Part shown: positions 1,791 to 7,422 of the stretch, in pieces | Layout of the letters: each line of letters starts with the position of its first letter | Position numbering within the stretch: the first letter of the stretch is position 1 | Origin: Ectothiorhodospiraceae bacterium 2226 | GTDB lineage: Bacteria; Pseudomonadota; Gammaproteobacteria; GCA-013348725 | NCBI GenBank assembly: GCA_013348725.1 | Contig: CP054689.1 | Coordinates: 1,476,501 to 1,540,500, forward strand | Length of the DNA: 64,000 bases | Reading direction: 5' to 3' | The notes under the pieces: model-generated | Told to the model about the DNA's origin: nothing | Database searches by the model: none | Seen by the model: only the letters and a program-made list of their open reading frames with translations | Position numbers and translations under genes: made by a program

Positions 1791-2843
1791 GTGGACACCC
1801 TCACCCATGCACTGAGCGGTGCCCTGCTGGCACGTGCCGCCACCCCCGCGCGCCCCGCGCCGGGCACGCCCGGCGTGAGCGGCCGCATGGCGGCCGGCTT
1901 CGTCGGCGGCGCCTTCCCCGACATCGACGTGGTCACGCGCGCGGTCGACACCCTCTGGTACCTGAGCGAGGTGCACCAGCGCGCGACGCATTCGCTGGTG
2001 CTGCTGCCCCTGTGGGCCGTCGCCGTGGCCTGGCTGTTCGGCCGCGCGTCGGGTTTGCGCTGGCGAGGCTACTTCGTACCGGCGGCGCTCGGCATCGGCA
2101 TTCACATTGCGGGGGATCTGATCACGGCCTACGGCACCATGGTGCTGTACCCGCTCTCCAGCTGGCGCCCGGCGCTGTCCTGGACCTATGTGGTGGATCC
2201 CTACTTCACGGTCATCCTCCTCGCCGGACTGCTCGCCGCCTGGCGCTGGCCGACGCACGCCCAAACGGCCGCCGTCGCCGCCTTGGCGGCGCTCGTCACC
2301 TACGTGGGCATGCTGGGGCTCCTACATCAGCGGGCGGTGGGCATGGCCGAGGCGTATGCCGCGGCCATGGAGCTGCCGGCGGAGCGCGGCCGCGCGCTGC
2401 CCCAGCCATTCTCGCCCGCTCACTGGATGTTGGTGGTGAGCGATGGCGCGGCGCACCACACGGCCTGGGCGCGTCTGCTGCCAGGACGCAGCCTGGCCGA
2501 ACGCCTGCCCCTGCCGCCGCCCTTTCAGCGCATGCCCGCCCATTACAGCCATGCGCCCGAATGGCAACGCCATCCGCGCTTTGGCCGCACCCCGGATGAG
2601 ATCGAGGTGGCCACGGAAGCGTGGCGGCAGGACGAGTTCCGGTACTTTCGTCGCTTCGCGCGTCTTCCGGCGCTCCACGACGTGGATGCCGATGGTGATG
2701 ACGCGCGACAGTGCGCTTGGTTCAAAGACCTGCGCTTCAGCCTGCCGGCGCTACCCCCATCCTTCGTGTTCGGCATGTGCCGCGATACCACCGACGGCAC
2801 ATGGCAACGGAAGCGCCGTCGCGGCGCGATGTGGTTTGATTGA
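1791..2843 (+). CDS. Membrane-bound metal-dependent hydrolase (YdjM/DUF457 family)
   Basis: A 350-residue protein with a GTG start. The N-terminus carries the family pattern: T-H-A-L-S-G in the first ten residues, then G-x-x-F-P-D-I-D and R-x-x-T-H-S, His and Asp residues that in this family are thought to bind metal. Several hydrophobic segments between about residues 70 and 190 predict an inner-membrane protein. The last about 150 residues are soluble and Trp/Arg rich. This family is often called LexA-regulated membrane hydrolase; its substrate is not established. It follows the TetR gene by 15 bases, so that regulator may control it. Confidence 0.75.
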   Translation: MDTLTHALSGALLARAATPARPAPGTPGVSGRMAAGFVGGAFPDIDVVTRAVDTLWYLSEVHQRATHSLVLLPLWAVAVAWLFGRASGLRWRGYFVPAALGIGIHIAGDLITAYGTMVLYPLSSWRPALSWTYVVDPYFTVILLAGLLAAWRWPTHAQTAAVAALAALVTYVGMLGLLHQRAVGMAEAYAAAMELPAERGRALPQPFSPAHWMLVVSDGAAHHTAWARLLPGRSLAERLPLPPPFQRMPAHYSHAPEWQRHPRFGRTPDEIEVATEAWRQDEFRYFRRFARLPALHDVDADGDDARQCAWFKDLRFSLPALPPSFVFGMCRDTTDGTWQRKRRRGAMWFD

Positions 2844-2928
2844 GATGCTCGGGAGCGGACCAGTTTTCCGGGTGAGGCGCACCAGCCAGTCGGCAATGGT
2901 CGCGTTCTCTGTCGCCAGCACCGTGTCC

Positions 2929-2966
2929 GTTAAACGGGGGGAGGTTCATAGCGTCTCCCGTTATGT
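2929..2966 (-). other. Possible degenerate attC site ending the cassette array
   Basis: On the minus strand ACATAAC and GTTTAAC bracket a small stem made by AACGGGAG and CTCCC...GTT, just after the stop codon of the last cassette gene. Placement fits an attC recombination site, but the match to the RYYYAAC/GTTRRRY core consensus is imperfect. It could instead be a weak terminator. Confidence 0.35.
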
Positions 2967-2971
2967 GTTCA

Positions 2972-3355
2972 CTATCCACATTCCTTGCTCATGAGTCGCT
3001 CAAGTGTTGCACGGCTGATCTGGAATTCGAAATGCAATGGCTCATGAGAACCGACTACGAAGTATTTGACTTCGGCACCGTAGCTCTCGGCGGGGTCAGA
3101 GAGATGGTGATCCACAAGCTTGTTGACGATATTGATCAGACGCTTCGATGCCAAATCCTCCTTACTAGCCATCCTCTCAGTCTGGCTATCGGCTTTGTCA
3201 AAGAACCACTCATAGACTCCGCATCTATCCGCTTTAATATCGATATCAGGCACCCCGCCAAGCCACTCCGGAACGCCGCTTTCCCCGCCGTGAGCAGATA
3301 GAGCGCAGGCTACGCCAATAAGCCCAAGAACCTTTCTCCAAAAGTGCGGACACAC
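2972..3355 (-). CDS. Cassette gene: hypothetical secreted or membrane-anchored protein
   Basis: No family recognised. The proposed GTG start at 3355 has AAGGAG six bases upstream and gives 127 residues. It begins with a positively charged segment and a hydrophobic stretch (VLGLIGVACALSA) that looks like a signal peptide or signal anchor; G-V-A-C is a poor lipobox. The remaining about 100 residues are soluble and mixed-charge with two cysteines. Base composition is visibly less GC-rich than neighbouring core genes. The attC-like sequence at 3378-3419 lies just upstream and another possible one just downstream, so this is read as the last cassette of the array. Confidence 0.55.
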   Translation of the reverse strand: MCPHFWRKVLGLIGVACALSAHGGESGVPEWLGGVPDIDIKADRCGVYEWFFDKADSQTERMASKEDLASKRLINIVNKLVDHHLSDPAESYGAEVKYFVVGSHEPLHFEFQISRATLERLMSKECG

Positions 3356-3377
3356 AACACTCTCCTTAGTCTTCGAT

Positions 3378-3419
3378 ACATAACCGTTACCCAAGCGAGC
3401 TTGGGGGGCCATGTTAGAT
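3378..3419 (-). other. Short attC-like recombination site
   Basis: On the minus strand the site opens with ATCTAAC, a perfect RYYYAAC core, has a central CCCAAGC/GCTTGGG stem, and closes with GTTATGT, one base off GTTRRRY. The stop codon of the upstream cassette gene (3414-3416) lies inside the opening core, a common arrangement in gene cassettes. It is shorter (42 bp) than the two clear sites at 3887 and 4252. Confidence 0.5.
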
Positions 3420-3881
3420 TCTTGCGACATACAAACCGAACCCCAAGCTGAGAAGTGCGAAAACGCCAAAGCCTATCCATTCGTAGGCAGACTTTGCTGG
3501 TTTAACAGCAGGCTGGTTGATTCGAGGATCCGATCCTGCGTATGCCACCTCAATCATGTGACCCCTTTGCGCCGCGACATAGTCGGATTCGGGCACTCGC
3601 GCCCACATTTCTGATAAAAGCCACTGGCCAGTGTATGAGTAGCTTTGACCCGATCCAGGTGGAGAAAAGCGATAGCGCACTTGGTACGGATAATCTACGC
3701 CCGTGCAGCCCCGGCCCGTGCAAGGATGAAAACGTGCAGACGTTACTTCCGCATGGATGACTACTCTATCGTGACCCATTAGCCACCAGCTATATGCTTC
3801 AAAGCCCGCGAGCCACGAGAACACTGCTCCGTTAACAGCGAAGAGGGTGAATAGCGCCAATTTAGCGACAGCAGGGTTCAC
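3414..3881 (-). CDS. Cassette gene: DUF3592-like membrane protein
   Basis: 155 residues from a GTG at 3881, chosen because upstream starts would lie inside the attC site at 3887-3964. There is a hydrophobic segment near residues 6-25 and a second near the C-terminus (WIGFGVFALLSLGFGLYV). Between them is a beta-rich extracytoplasmic domain with two cysteines in FHPCTGRGCTG and a Y-x-V-x-Y-x-F pattern typical of DUF3592-type proteins. Function is unknown; small two-helix membrane proteins are common in integron cassettes. GC content is below that of the surrounding core genes. The family call is by pattern only. Confidence 0.6.
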   Translation of the reverse strand: MNPAVAKLALFTLFAVNGAVFSWLAGFEAYSWWLMGHDRVVIHAEVTSARFHPCTGRGCTGVDYPYQVRYRFSPPGSGQSYSYTGQWLLSEMWARVPESDYVAAQRGHMIEVAYAGSDPRINQPAVKPAKSAYEWIGFGVFALLSLGFGLYVARI

Positions 3882-3886
3882 AGCTA

Positions 3887-3964
3887 TTCTAACGCTCCGC
3901 TTGAGCCGCCGCTTTCCCTGCAGCGCAGCGGAAGGGGAAGCCGTCGGACTCAAAGCGGTTACTC
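3887..3964 (-). other. attC recombination site of a gene cassette
   Basis: This 78-bp imperfect inverted repeat has ends TTCTAAC and GTTACTC as read on the plus strand. The inner boxes GCTTGAGCC and GGACTCAAAGC face each other across a GC-rich stem (CTGCAGCGCAG centre). The TAAC core, the short spacer, the CTTGAG/CTCAAG box and the long hairpin are the usual parts of an attC (59-base element). The stop codon of the gene at 3959-4237 overlaps one core. Together with 4252-4328 it is the strongest evidence for the array. Confidence 0.75.
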
Positions 3965-4237
3965 GCCATCCGTGGTCTTTCCACTAATCCGCGCACTGTA
4001 GCGCCACACATGATCAAGTAGGCCCATCTCCCGAGCCGCCTCATTTGCTTTCTTCCAGAACCCTTCTGGAGCGCCGCTTTCGAGCGCCACGCCTTCAAGC
4101 TCGGCGAGCGCCAACTCCAAGTCGTTGTGTTCGAGATATTCGGCGAAGTACAGCAGAAAATCGTCAGACACAGCCAACATGCTTCTCGCTTCCAGCAGGT
4201 GTCCAGTCGTTCTTTCCCACGACGCTTGCAGCGACAT
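3959..4237 (-). CDS. Cassette gene: small acidic helical protein, possibly immunity-type
   Basis: 92 residues, ATG at 4237 preceded by GAGGGGAACGG. It is acidic and almost entirely helical, with an EYLEHNDLELALAELEG stretch that resembles small immunity proteins of the MafI type. That resemblance is from pattern memory and is weak. There is no signal peptide or membrane segment. attC-like sites lie immediately on each side, so the unit 3965-4258 has the form of a complete one-gene cassette. Confidence 0.6.
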   Translation of the reverse strand: MSLQASWERTTGHLLEARSMLAVSDDFLLYFAEYLEHNDLELALAELEGVALESGAPEGFWKKANEAAREMGLLDHVWRYSARISGKTTDGE

Positions 4238-4251
4238 CCGTTCCCCTCACT

Positions 4252-4328
4252 GACTAACGTTCTGCTTGAGGCGCCGAGAAAAGCGCGCAGCGCTTTACGA
4301 GGTCGCTCTCAAAGCAGTTGTTAGGAGC
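4252..4328 (-). other. attC recombination site of a gene cassette
   Basis: This 77-bp imperfect inverted repeat reads GACTAAC at one end and GTTAGGA at the other on the plus strand. Its inner boxes TGCTTGAGGC and CTCTCAAAGCA pair across a stem with an AAAGCGCGCAGCGCTTT centre. The CTTGAG/CTCAAG boxes match those of the site at 3887-3964 while the stem between them differs, as expected for attC sites. It lies between the stop of the gene at 4334-4681 and the start of the gene at 3959-4237. Confidence 0.75.
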
Positions 4329-4333
4329 GTTCC

Positions 4334-4681
4334 TCACCATGCGGGCGGCCATCCGAAAACAAAGATTGACATAAAGAACGAGCACACCCCAACAACGCCG
4401 AAAAAATATGAATATATGACCGGTTTCCGATGTGCTTCACAGAACTCGACCTCTTCTGATTCCTCTCGCTTCACGTATTCACGTTCTTTCAGGTATTTGA
4501 TCGTTTCCCATGCGCCGATCAGGTTGGAATCGGTTGCCAGCGACCGATAGCCGCTGTGCTCCCATAAGTCAGGGTAATTCTTCAGCCCCTTTAAGAATCG
4601 CCACGAATACCAACTCTCCACTAGGAGTCCGGCGATGAACACAAATGTGGCAATCGCGGTTGGATGCAAGATAATTTCCAA
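4334..4681 (-). CDS. Cassette gene: small two-helix membrane protein
   Basis: 115 residues from a TTG at 4681. A hydrophobic helix covers about residues 7-24 and a second covers about 92-110, with a charged cytoplasmic-type middle section (KYLKEREYVKREESEEVE). The layout, with N- and C-terminal helices around a soluble core containing a D-L-W-x-H segment, is loosely like UspB, but identity is uncertain. The likely Shine-Dalgarno, AGGAG, is part of the cassette junction core GTTAGGAG just upstream. This is the first cassette in the direction of reading. Confidence 0.55.
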   Translation of the reverse strand: MEIILHPTAIATFVFIAGLLVESWYSWRFLKGLKNYPDLWEHSGYRSLATDSNLIGAWETIKYLKEREYVKREESEEVEFCEAHRKPVIYSYFFGVVGVCSFFMSIFVFGWPPAW

Positions 4682-4690
4682 CGTGTCAGC

Positions 4691-4744
4691 TCCTAACAGT
4701 ACTAGACGGAAAGAATCCGTGGTTAAACACGGAAACTTTCCGCC
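4691..4744 (-). other. Upstream boundary of the cassette array: core site plus hairpin
   Basis: On the minus strand GTTAGGA (4697-4691) stands before the first cassette gene. A 40-bp imperfect hairpin lies just upstream (4705-4744; arms about 17 bases with three mismatches, loop TTTAAC). The CTTGAG boxes of a normal attC are absent, so this may be an attI remnant or an unrelated terminator. No integrase gene is seen between here and glmS. Confidence 0.3.
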
Positions 4745-4952
4745 TATCGCGCATCGCCGGGCAGGAGACGAGCCTCTTCTTCCGTTGAATGAATGGCTAA
4801 CGGCGTGCCCGCGTTCTTGGGCTTGCGTGATATACGGATACTGGCCGCCATATTGGAGATAAGCGGCGAAGCGGAACGGGGCGGTGGGCGCTTGAATGCC
4901 ATCTGGAGTCCTTCTTTGGGACCTATTGGGGCATCTTCCCGCGTGAGGGGCG

Positions 4953-5296
4953 CTAGTTCAAGCTTTGCCGTAAGGCGGGTGAACGCGGACCGCAGCGCGC
5001 GCTACCGCCTATGCGCCAACGCCGCGGGTTACGGCTGGCGTGCATGACGGCAACTACAACTACGGCCTCTCGCTCGAGTCGATAGTAGATGCCGAAGGGG
5101 AACTTGTGGATCAAGGCACGTCGCGTGTTGCGGTACAGGGCGGGATACAGCGAGGGCGTTCGGCAAGCTTCGCCAGCGCCTGCGAGACTTCGTCCAGGAA
5201 CTGCTGGCCGAGACCGCTTCGCTGGTGCTCGTACCACCTGGCGGCTTCCTCGATGTCTCGCTCGGCCTCGGGCCGAAGGCGGACATCCTGCGTCAC
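4953..5296 (-). pseudogene. Frameshifted ParE/RelE-type toxin
   Basis: From a GTG at 5296 the first 48 codons read as the N-terminus of a ParE-like toxin (LRPEAERDIEEAARWYE, then FLDEV and LAKLAERP). The homology continues one frame away as SLYPALYRNTRRALIHKFP, then a Y-Y-R-L strand and the terminal M-H-A-S-R-N-P-R-R-W motif. The break is at a three-base C/G run at 5154-5156; one extra base there would restore about 114 residues. Such toxins act on DNA gyrase or ribosome-bound mRNA. As sequenced the toxin is truncated. The start overlaps the antitoxin stop by four bases. Confidence 0.75.
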
Positions 5297-5502
5297 AGGC
5301 GCTTGCGGATTCTCGCGAGCACGTCCGCTGCCGGACGTCCCGGGTCGCGGTCAGTCTCGAAGGCGTCGAGACGCCGGTCCAGCTCGGCTCGCTGCTCGTC
5401 GGTCAGCGGCAGTGCGGACTGATCGGCGGCGATGCTGTCCCAAAGCTCCTCGACGAGGCGAATGCGCTGCTCAACGCTCAGATCGCGCAGGGTATGGTTC
5501 AT
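5293..5502 (-). CDS. Antitoxin of an addiction module
   Basis: 69 residues. The pattern LSVEQRIRLVEELWDSIA followed by P-L-T-D-E-Q-R-A-E-L-D-R-R-L and a D-P-G segment matches the short 'putative addiction module component' antitoxins that precede ParE/RelE toxins. Its stop overlaps the toxin start (GTGA), the usual translational coupling. With the toxin broken it would be an orphan antitoxin unless the frameshift is an artefact. It lies between the cassette array and glmS. Confidence 0.8.
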   Translation of the reverse strand: MNHTLRDLSVEQRIRLVEELWDSIAADQSALPLTDEQRAELDRRLDAFETDRDPGRPAADVLARIRKRL

Positions 5503-5592
5503 AGCGTACCTCCGTATCTGGACCTAAGGTGACGCGACGGACGCCCAATGGGAACAGGCACGCCGTCCGCCCCGCGTGGTCAGCGGAACTAC

Positions 5593-7422
5593 CTACTCCA
5601 CCGTCACCGACTTGGCGAGATTCCGCGGCTGATCCACGTCCGTCCCCTTGATCACCGCGGCGTGGTAAGCGAGGAGCTGCAGGGGCACGGTGTGGACGAT
5701 GGGTGAGACGACCTGATCGGTGGGCGCGATGTTGTAGACCTGCACGCCGGGACCGGCCTGCATCTCGGCGCCTGCGTCGGCGAACACGATGAGCTCGCCG
5801 CCGCGGGCGCGGACCTCTTGCAGGTTGGCCTTCAGCTTTTCGAGCAGCTCGTCGTTGGGGGCGACGGCGATCACGGGCATGGCGTCGTCGACGAGAGCCA
5901 ATGGGCCGTGCTTGAGTTCCCCGGCGGGGTACGCCTCGGCGTGGATGTAGGAAATCTCTTTCAGCTTGAGCGCGCCCTCTAGCGCGACGGGGTAGTGCGC
6001 GCCGCGGCCGAGGAACAGGGCATGCTGTTTGTCGGCGAACTGCACGGCGAGCTCGCGGATGGCGTCGTCCATCTTCAGCACGTCTTCGATCATGCCGGGC
6101 AGGCGCTTGAGTTGATCGACGATGCGCGCCTCTTGCGCGTCCTCCAGGCGGTGGCGGCGGCCGAGCACGAGCACCAGCAGCAGCAGCGCCGTGAGTTGGG
6201 TGGTGAAGGCCTTGGTGGAGGCGACGCCGATCTCGGGGCCGGCGCGGGTCATGAGCACCAGGTCGGACTCGCGCACCAGCGCGCTCTCGGGCACGTTGCA
6301 GATGGCGAGGGTGTGCTGAAAGCCAAGACCCTTGGCGGCGCGCAGCGCGGCCAGCGTGTCGGCGGTCTCGCCCGATTGGGAGATGGTGACCAGCAGCGAG
6401 TTGCGGCGCACCACCGGGTTGCGGTAGCGAAACTCGCTCGCGACCTCGACGGCGCAGGGGATGCCGGCCAGGGACTCGATCCAGTAGCGGGCGATCATGC
6501 CGGCGTGGTAGCTGGTGCCGCAGGCGACGATGTGCACGTGCTCGACGGTGTCGAAGATCTCACCGGCGTTCTGGCCGAAGCTTTGCTCCAGGACGTGCGA
6601 ATCGCTGAGGCGCGCCTCCAGCGTCTCGGCCACGGCGCGCGCCTGCTCGTGGATCTCCTTCTGCATGTAGTGGCGGTACTCGCCCCGCTCCACCGCGTCG
6701 GCGGAGAGTTCGGACTCGCGCACCGGGCGCTGTACCTCGTGGCCGTCCAGGTCGTAAATGACCAAGCCGTCCTTGCTGAGGTCGGCGATATCACCGTCTT
6801 CCAAAAAGATGAAACGCTGCGTGACGGGCAGCAGCGCCGCGACGTCCGAGGCGATGAAGTGCTCACCGATGCCGACGCCGATCACCAGCGGGCTGCCGCG
6901 CCGCGCGGCGATCAGGCGCCCGGGCTCGTTCTTGCTCACCACGCCGAGCGCGTAGGCCCCGCGCAGCTCGGCCACCGTGCGGCGCACGGCTTCGAGGAGA
7001 TCCGCGCCGCGCTCGGTTTCGTCGTAGATGGCATGCACCACGACTTCGGTGTCGGTCTCGGAGGTGAAGGCGTGGCCGTTGCGGCGCTGCACCTCGCCGA
7101 GCGCTTCGTAGTTTTCGATGATGCCGTTGTGCACCACGGCGATGGTGTGGCGGCACACGTGCGGATGGGCGTTGTTCTGGGTGGGCTTGCCGTGCGTGGC
7201 CCAGCGCGTGTGCGCGATGCCGGTGCGCGCACTGAGCCGCTCCTCGCGCACCGCCTCGGCAAGCGCGGCGACCTTGCCCGGCGCGCGCACGCGCTCGACG
7301 CAACCGTCGCGCAGCACGGCCACGCCCGCCGAGTCATAGCCCCGATACTCGAGGCGACGCAGCCCTTCCAACAGAATCGGCACCACGTCGCGCTCGGCCA
7401 CGGCTCCCACGATTCCGCACAT
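5593..7422 (-). CDS. glmS: Glutamine-fructose-6-phosphate aminotransferase (isomerizing)
   Basis: Makes glucosamine-6-phosphate from fructose-6-phosphate and glutamine, the first step to UDP-GlcNAc for peptidoglycan and LPS. 609 residues, the normal length. The N-terminal glutaminase begins MCGIVGAV with the catalytic Cys2 and contains RWATHG. Two SIS sugar-isomerase domains follow (T-I-S-Q-S-G-E-T-A-D-T and G-R-G-A-H-Y-P-V-A-L-E-G). The C-terminus D-Q-P-R-N-L-A-K-S-V-T-V-E is the family's closing motif. It starts five bases after glmU ends, so the pair is an operon in pathway order glmU-glmS as transcribed. Confidence 0.97.
   Translation of the reverse strand: MCGIVGAVAERDVVPILLEGLRRLEYRGYDSAGVAVLRDGCVERVRAPGKVAALAEAVREERLSARTGIAHTRWATHGKPTQNNAHPHVCRHTIAVVHNGIIENYEALGEVQRRNGHAFTSETDTEVVVHAIYDETERGADLLEAVRRTVAELRGAYALGVVSKNEPGRLIAARRGSPLVIGVGIGEHFIASDVAALLPVTQRFIFLEDGDIADLSKDGLVIYDLDGHEVQRPVRESELSADAVERGEYRHYMQKEIHEQARAVAETLEARLSDSHVLEQSFGQNAGEIFDTVEHVHIVACGTSYHAGMIARYWIESLAGIPCAVEVASEFRYRNPVVRRNSLLVTISQSGETADTLAALRAAKGLGFQHTLAICNVPESALVRESDLVLMTRAGPEIGVASTKAFTTQLTALLLLVLVLGRRHRLEDAQEARIVDQLKRLPGMIEDVLKMDDAIRELAVQFADKQHALFLGRGAHYPVALEGALKLKEISYIHAEAYPAGELKHGPLALVDDAMPVIAVAPNDELLEKLKANLQEVRARGGELIVFADAGAEMQAGPGVQVYNIAPTDQVVSPIVHTVPLQLLAYHAAVIKGTDVDQPRNLAKSVTVE

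Follow-up and report, generated by a model that had tools for sequence, protein, structure and literature searches.

CALINs, which comprise at least two attC sites with no integron integrase nearby, are frequent, the IntegronFinder 2.0 survey having counted 2,961 of them, and it has been proposed that they are degraded integrons (PMC9024848). Gene cassettes can also be inserted outside integrons altogether, at attG sites, described as having divergent sequences and structures (PMC12901181, citing Loot et al. 2024). Also described are delta-attI-type gene cassettes, in which attI sites lie within unusual cassettes of mobile integrons (PMC12901181).

The locus described here resembles each of these systems in part. 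It lies in a closed genome consisting of a single contig (C1) of 2,956,257 bases, within a stretch of 64,000 nucleotides (C1:1476501-1540500) that was analyzed as a whole and is hereafter called the window; positions refer to the window unless marked C1. Like a CALIN, the locus has two scoring attC sites, short open reading frames in the same direction and no intI either nearby or in the genome. Unlike a CALIN, it is headed by an attI-type hairpin, a feature outside the CALIN definition (PMC9024848) and one drawn here from a family whose other members adjoin intI. With sedentary chromosomal integrons it shares the succession of a putative attI and attC cassettes, a low GC content, unassigned genes and the occurrence of homologous attI-type sites beside intI in other genomes; however, it has no intI, carries four cassettes only and its attC sites are not all alike. 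As with insertion at attG, cassettes have settled in a place without integrase, but the site is conserved and also found beside intI, in contrast to attG sites, which are described as divergent (PMC12901181). Finally, delta-attI-type cassettes likewise place attI-derived sequence away from its intI, except that there it is described as forming part of cassettes (PMC12901181), whereas here it heads an array. Taken together, the data make it very probable that the segment is a chromosomal integron platform, made of a putative attI and four cassettes, that has no integrase and whose far end was cut by an IS3-family element.

The cassette array and its attC sites

The array is located downstream of glmS, whose stop codon is at position 5593. 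This position, directly downstream of the gene, is the usual attTn7 site; no Tn7 end could be recognized by eye near the array. A toxin-antitoxin pair on the minus strand (4953-5502) separates glmS from the attI module. Its antitoxin (PF09720/TIGR02574) is intact at 5293-5502, while the ParE-like toxin appears frameshifted, with the frame change falling after about 5111-5150. Inspection of the sequence placed all four cassette genes on the minus strand, with repeats between them. The cassettes have a GC content of 0.50-0.58 against 0.675 in the window, in agreement with the first-pass annotation, which had described four lower-GC genes separated by attC-like inverted repeats between positions 2929 and 4744. 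These coordinates proved right.

Of the four repeats, those at 3887-3964 and 4252-4328 had been singled out as the clearest, and covariance scoring had been suggested as a check, background scores being the ground for giving up the idea. Scoring was done with two models built in this analysis, in place of IntegronFinder's model. The first, R1, was built from 18 attC of other integrons, which themselves score 33-52 bits; the second, R2, from nine attC of other genomes, each with three extrahelical bases. R1 detects one site in the window, at 4252-4326 on the minus strand (32.7 bits, E 3.6e-5), corresponding to the attC of cassette 1 (site B, about 4252-4328). In the whole genome, site B alone stands above chance (E 1.7e-3), the next match reaching 16.6 bits (E 7). 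The attC of cassette 2 (site A, 3887-3964, minus strand) obtains just 7.6 bits from R1, which underscored it because of the three extrahelical bases and of a deletion of 3 nt in the spacer between R'' and L''. R2 remedied this: in the whole genome, site B scores 52.9 bits (E 1.5e-8) and site A 37.7 bits (E 6.5e-5), the latter score partly reflecting homology, since three of the nine training sequences are relatives of site A. Across the 2.96 Mb of the genome, R2 yielded no further attC up to an E of 10, and Rfam had no match for the sites.

Site A is 83% identical over 71 nt (E 4e-10) to an attC on a Methylobacter plasmid, situated in an unannotated stretch between two genes, and near-identical to attC sites in an integron of a Thauera MAG and in another gammaproteobacterium. 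In the Thauera locus, an open reading frame at 445-1443 was read as IntI. In both A and B, R and L boxes are present and the extrahelical bases fall on the L'' arm, beside the gene, as in the control sites. Sites A and B are genuine attC, two sites far above background where the first-pass annotation had expected them. Two simpler approaches were less informative. An inverted-repeat score was useless in DNA of 67% GC and was replaced by strict TAAC/GTTA cores together with the covariance models; a contig pattern scan for attC returned mostly chance matches, along with three true relatives of site A.

The two shorter repeats, also claimed as attC, are weak as such. Site C (3378-3419, minus strand), at the end of cassette 3, scores 8.8 bits with R1, and site D (2929-2966, minus strand), at the end of cassette 4, gives no full-site match; both are thus at background level (8.8 bits or less), and neither has R and L boxes with extrahelical L'' bases. 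In site D the R'' box, ACATAAC, is intact and R' is uncertain. As cassette borders, the two sites fared better. Upon integration of a circular cassette, the TTRRRY part of its attC ends up at the 5' border of the cassette. As a result, R'' is expected to be complementary to the R' at the 5' end of its own cassette and not to the R' adjoining it. In the array, each comparison involves three bases outside the core, 12 in all; of these, 10 match when R'' and R' come from one cassette and 2 when they come from one junction (p = 3.8e-5). The rule is mostly seen in control arrays too. Because their boxes obey it, C and D look like real cassette borders whose sites are short or decayed.

So delimited, all on the minus strand, cassette 1 spans 439 bp (4258-4696), with G|TT borders and a match of 9 bases between border and R''. 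Cassettes 2 (365 bp, 3893-4257) and 3 (509 bp, 3384-3892) each follow the junction rule at 6 of 7 bases and cassette 4 (449 bp, 2935-3383) at 7 of 7. Cassette 1 encodes a membrane-like protein of 115 aa (4681-4334) and cassette 2 a protein of 92 aa (4237-3959); cassettes 3 and 4 encode, respectively, another membrane-like protein (GTG start at 3881, stop at 3414) and a probable secreted protein or lipoprotein (GTG start at 3355, stop at 2972). The reported overlap of stop codons with the attC cores applies to the genes ending at 3959 and 3414 and not to the other two. None of the four genes reached a curated cut-off in Pfam, NCBIfam or PADLOC, leaving them without assignment as initially described, and searches for three of the proteins on plasmids and for two of them in 274 genomes produced nothing useful. 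At the distal end of the array lies the remnant of an ISAs22-like transposase gene of the IS3 family (2871-2921, minus strand; 78% identity over 51 nt, E 5e-8), which in tblastn matches IS3 transposases. The far end of the array is cut by an IS3-family element.

PF00589 identifies two genes in the genome, xerC and xerD, assigned by eye from their neighborhoods (dapF and a gene for a DUF484-like protein upstream of the former, a gene for a DsbC-like protein downstream of the latter). No IntI is encoded in the genome, the best match to TIGR02249 reaching 82 bits against a cut-off of 265, and tblastn with IntI proteins found no intI remnant in the interval 2701-5650. The initial statement that the segment has no tyrosine recombinase was thus borne out, and the search of the genome for intI and additional attC sites, proposed at the same time, found neither. 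The intI gene of a complete integron being missing and the genome being without IntI, the array is an orphan. Both initial descriptions, that of clustered attC sites without an integrase and that of what remains of a chromosomal integron, are apt, with two attC (by our own model R2) and no integron integrase in the segment or in the genome.

An attI-type hairpin at the head of the array

A feature that the first-pass annotation overlooked is found at the array head (4691-4749, minus strand). It consists of a hairpin, with arms within 4703-4746, and of the core CTG|TTAGGA (4697-4691). The 44-bp palindrome (fold z-score of -5.2) stops 5 bp ahead of the border of the first cassette. R3, a covariance model of the palindrome derived from four sites, two of them from this genome, scores the feature at 75.9 bits. 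The second site of this genome was found with positions 4685-5600 as query (match at C1:2481296, 84% over 49 nt); it occupies C1:2481292-2481351 on the minus strand (L077, 7293-7352) and has the core CTG|TTGGCT. With no attC match in the 16-kb stretch examined, this copy is apparently an empty platform. The two copies also have in common an upstream part of the module, decayed in the window (4750-4871, minus strand), where 47 nt from -121 to -75 relative to the hairpin start are 78.7% identical (E 3e-7).

A pattern search identified two further copies in G054, a genome related to this one only at the class level, and all four copies abut a GTT core. On contig 36 of G054, one gene and then an attC come after the core GTTAGATGCA, and the R'' of this attC, TGCATCTAAC, is the exact reverse complement of the core, indicating that the palindrome borders a cassette there as well. 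On contig 20 (L075, 163-1922), the hairpin module heads a unit of three genes (240, 146 and 197 aa), one of them DUF488-like by eye, with no clear attC behind.

In wider searches, R3 had matches at E up to 0.1 in 37 of the 369 gammaproteobacterial genomes and, at E up to 0.001, in 13 of 398 from the phylum, every one of the 13 belonging to the same class. Many of the matches have no detectable attC in the stretch examined. Eight lie 228-263 bp from the start of an IntI that is encoded on the other strand and directed away from the cassettes; in a ninth intI-linked case (G533) the distance is 172 bp. This spacing to a divergent intI is that of attI and is the reason for which we call the hairpin an attI. 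On the same grounds, an initial reading of the palindrome as a REP-like repeat or attG neighbor was dropped. In the window, a site of this family directly abuts cassette 1, its identity as attI coming from the position of its relatives. Furthermore, agreement between the hairpin core and the R'' of the first attC downstream extends to at least 8 bases in 35% of the sites (3.8% after swapping of cores between sites) and to at least 9 bases in 24% (0.6% after swapping).

Covariation was assessed in 22 hairpin sequences, the window copy being left out. In this set, 82.8% of the stem cells pair and 16 of the 18 pairs have changed on both sides. Double changes amount to 64 cells, compared to 23.6 +- 3.6 after shuffling and 17-22 after sliding, an excess somewhat inflated by the fact that the sequences were collected with a model favoring pairing. 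The intI spacing and the core test are independent of this mode of collection. These properties suggest that the hairpin site is a recombining attI.

Alternatively, the hairpin could lie outside the recombination site and form the 5' leader of the first-cassette transcript, with a role in regulation or mRNA stability, being carried along with a promoter adjoining attI. A promoter-like pair of hexamers near -68 in all five copies of two genomes (G121 and G236) implies that the hairpin could be transcribed, and covariation suits RNA as well as single-stranded DNA. However, no such pair is seen in most other copies or in the window, where a simple consensus scan of 4650-5600, made for the Pc promoter that precedes the first cassette in a complete integron, gave no match to a sigma-70-like promoter; moreover, the distance from hairpin to crossover is nearly constant whatever gene comes next. 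A leader function, which would be compatible with the core being attI, appears to us somewhat unlikely.

Integrase-less copies of the hairpin

Several genomes harbor more than one copy of the hairpin: five in G051, three in G032 and two each in G119 and G154. In G236, one copy is accompanied by intI and two are not, both of the latter carrying cassettes. Similarly, G121, assembled in one contig, has one copy with intI and another, about 580 kb away, without intI and with cassettes. Within genomes, the shared part often extends from between -115 and -240 up to the core. Sequences resembling a LexA box (CTGT-n8-ACAG or near) were seen by eye at several of the intI-side copies, with none seen in their satellites. 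Several copies (L124-L126 in G236, L118-L119 in G154) have another palindrome some 85-160 bp ahead of the hairpin, with which it shares the motif GATAGNCGGC.

The most uniform set is that of G734 (one contig of 4.6 Mb), in which five copies (L156-L160) are 84-98% identical. Their common 170-300 bp end near position 58-60, that is, at the G|TT crossover, and different sequence follows. One of these copies has an IntI match at 1.5 kb and a second has a weaker match at 3.9 kb. The presence of five such similar copies in one closed genome, like the additional palindrome seen near -125 to -160 in some copies, could mean that the hairpin module is a MITE-like non-autonomous element carrying attI and that the window copy arrived by transposition. 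Arguing against this idea, the left ends of the homology vary (about -115 to -240) and on the right the module just ends at the cassette crossover. We consider such an origin unlikely.

Origin of the array

The attI position of the hairpin family, its covarying stem and its core bordering cassettes are the reasons for which we regard the segment as an integron platform without integrase. In the scenario that we propose, at least four cassettes would have been captured in succession at an attI-type site by attC x attI recombination. The loading would have been the work of an integron integrase that this genome has ceased to encode, or never encoded, either a resident IntI that was lost or one acting in trans; an IS3-family element would then have cut the far end, and the array would now be frozen. 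The family to which the site belongs is recognizable by a covarying 18-bp hairpin just 5' of a CTG|TT core, its members standing beside a divergent intI or alone, as integrase-less satellite platforms, many with cassettes of their own. Given the attI-type hairpin, an integron that lost its integrase, or a satellite platform, is favored over loosely clustered attC sites. Two histories fit the data, one in which intI was lost from this locus and one in which the locus was always the satellite of an integron since lost; the second hairpin copy in the genome makes the latter reasonable.

The segment might, on the other hand, never have been an integron platform, if a passing IntI put the cassettes at an ordinary attG beside a palindromic repeat. 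Insertions at attG have been described (PMC12901181), the genome has no IntI, and the second hairpin copy is without adjacent cassette-like sequence. An attG should nonetheless be unrelated to attI, and here the site belongs to a family found beside intI, the same hairpin recurring at a fixed distance from that gene in several families, and cassette borders falling on its core at a rate far above that obtained when cores were swapped. All this renders an attG origin quite improbable. That the array reflects chance inverted repeats between unrelated small genes deserves almost no credence: sites C and D taken alone are at background, but sites A and B refute the idea by their genome-wide E values, as do the homology of site A to attC in other bacteria and the junction rule.

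More tentatively, the integron platform of the window may represent a large gammaproteobacterial class of integrons with a folded-hairpin attI, copies of which spread as satellites loaded in trans by one IntI, the window copy being an outpost orphaned when the integrase was lost. CALINs are an established category. In the literature searched, we encountered no family of structured attI sites accompanied by integrase-less satellites, and no attI with a hairpin, palindrome or inverted repeat; this search, from which subscription papers were largely absent, is no proof of novelty.

We know of no signature common to attI sites outside the mobile classes, a circumstance that makes array heads hard to find by computer. 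A covarying hairpin would supply such a signature and separate integrase-less attI arrays from loose attC clusters. It also raises the question of whether attI, like attC, acts as a folded single strand. With its putative attI and cassettes in a closed genome without integrase, the window offers a clean orphan case. Should satellites be served in trans, several expression platforms of a chromosome could be supplied by a single integrase and, if this is true, many CALINs would be working outposts rather than debris.
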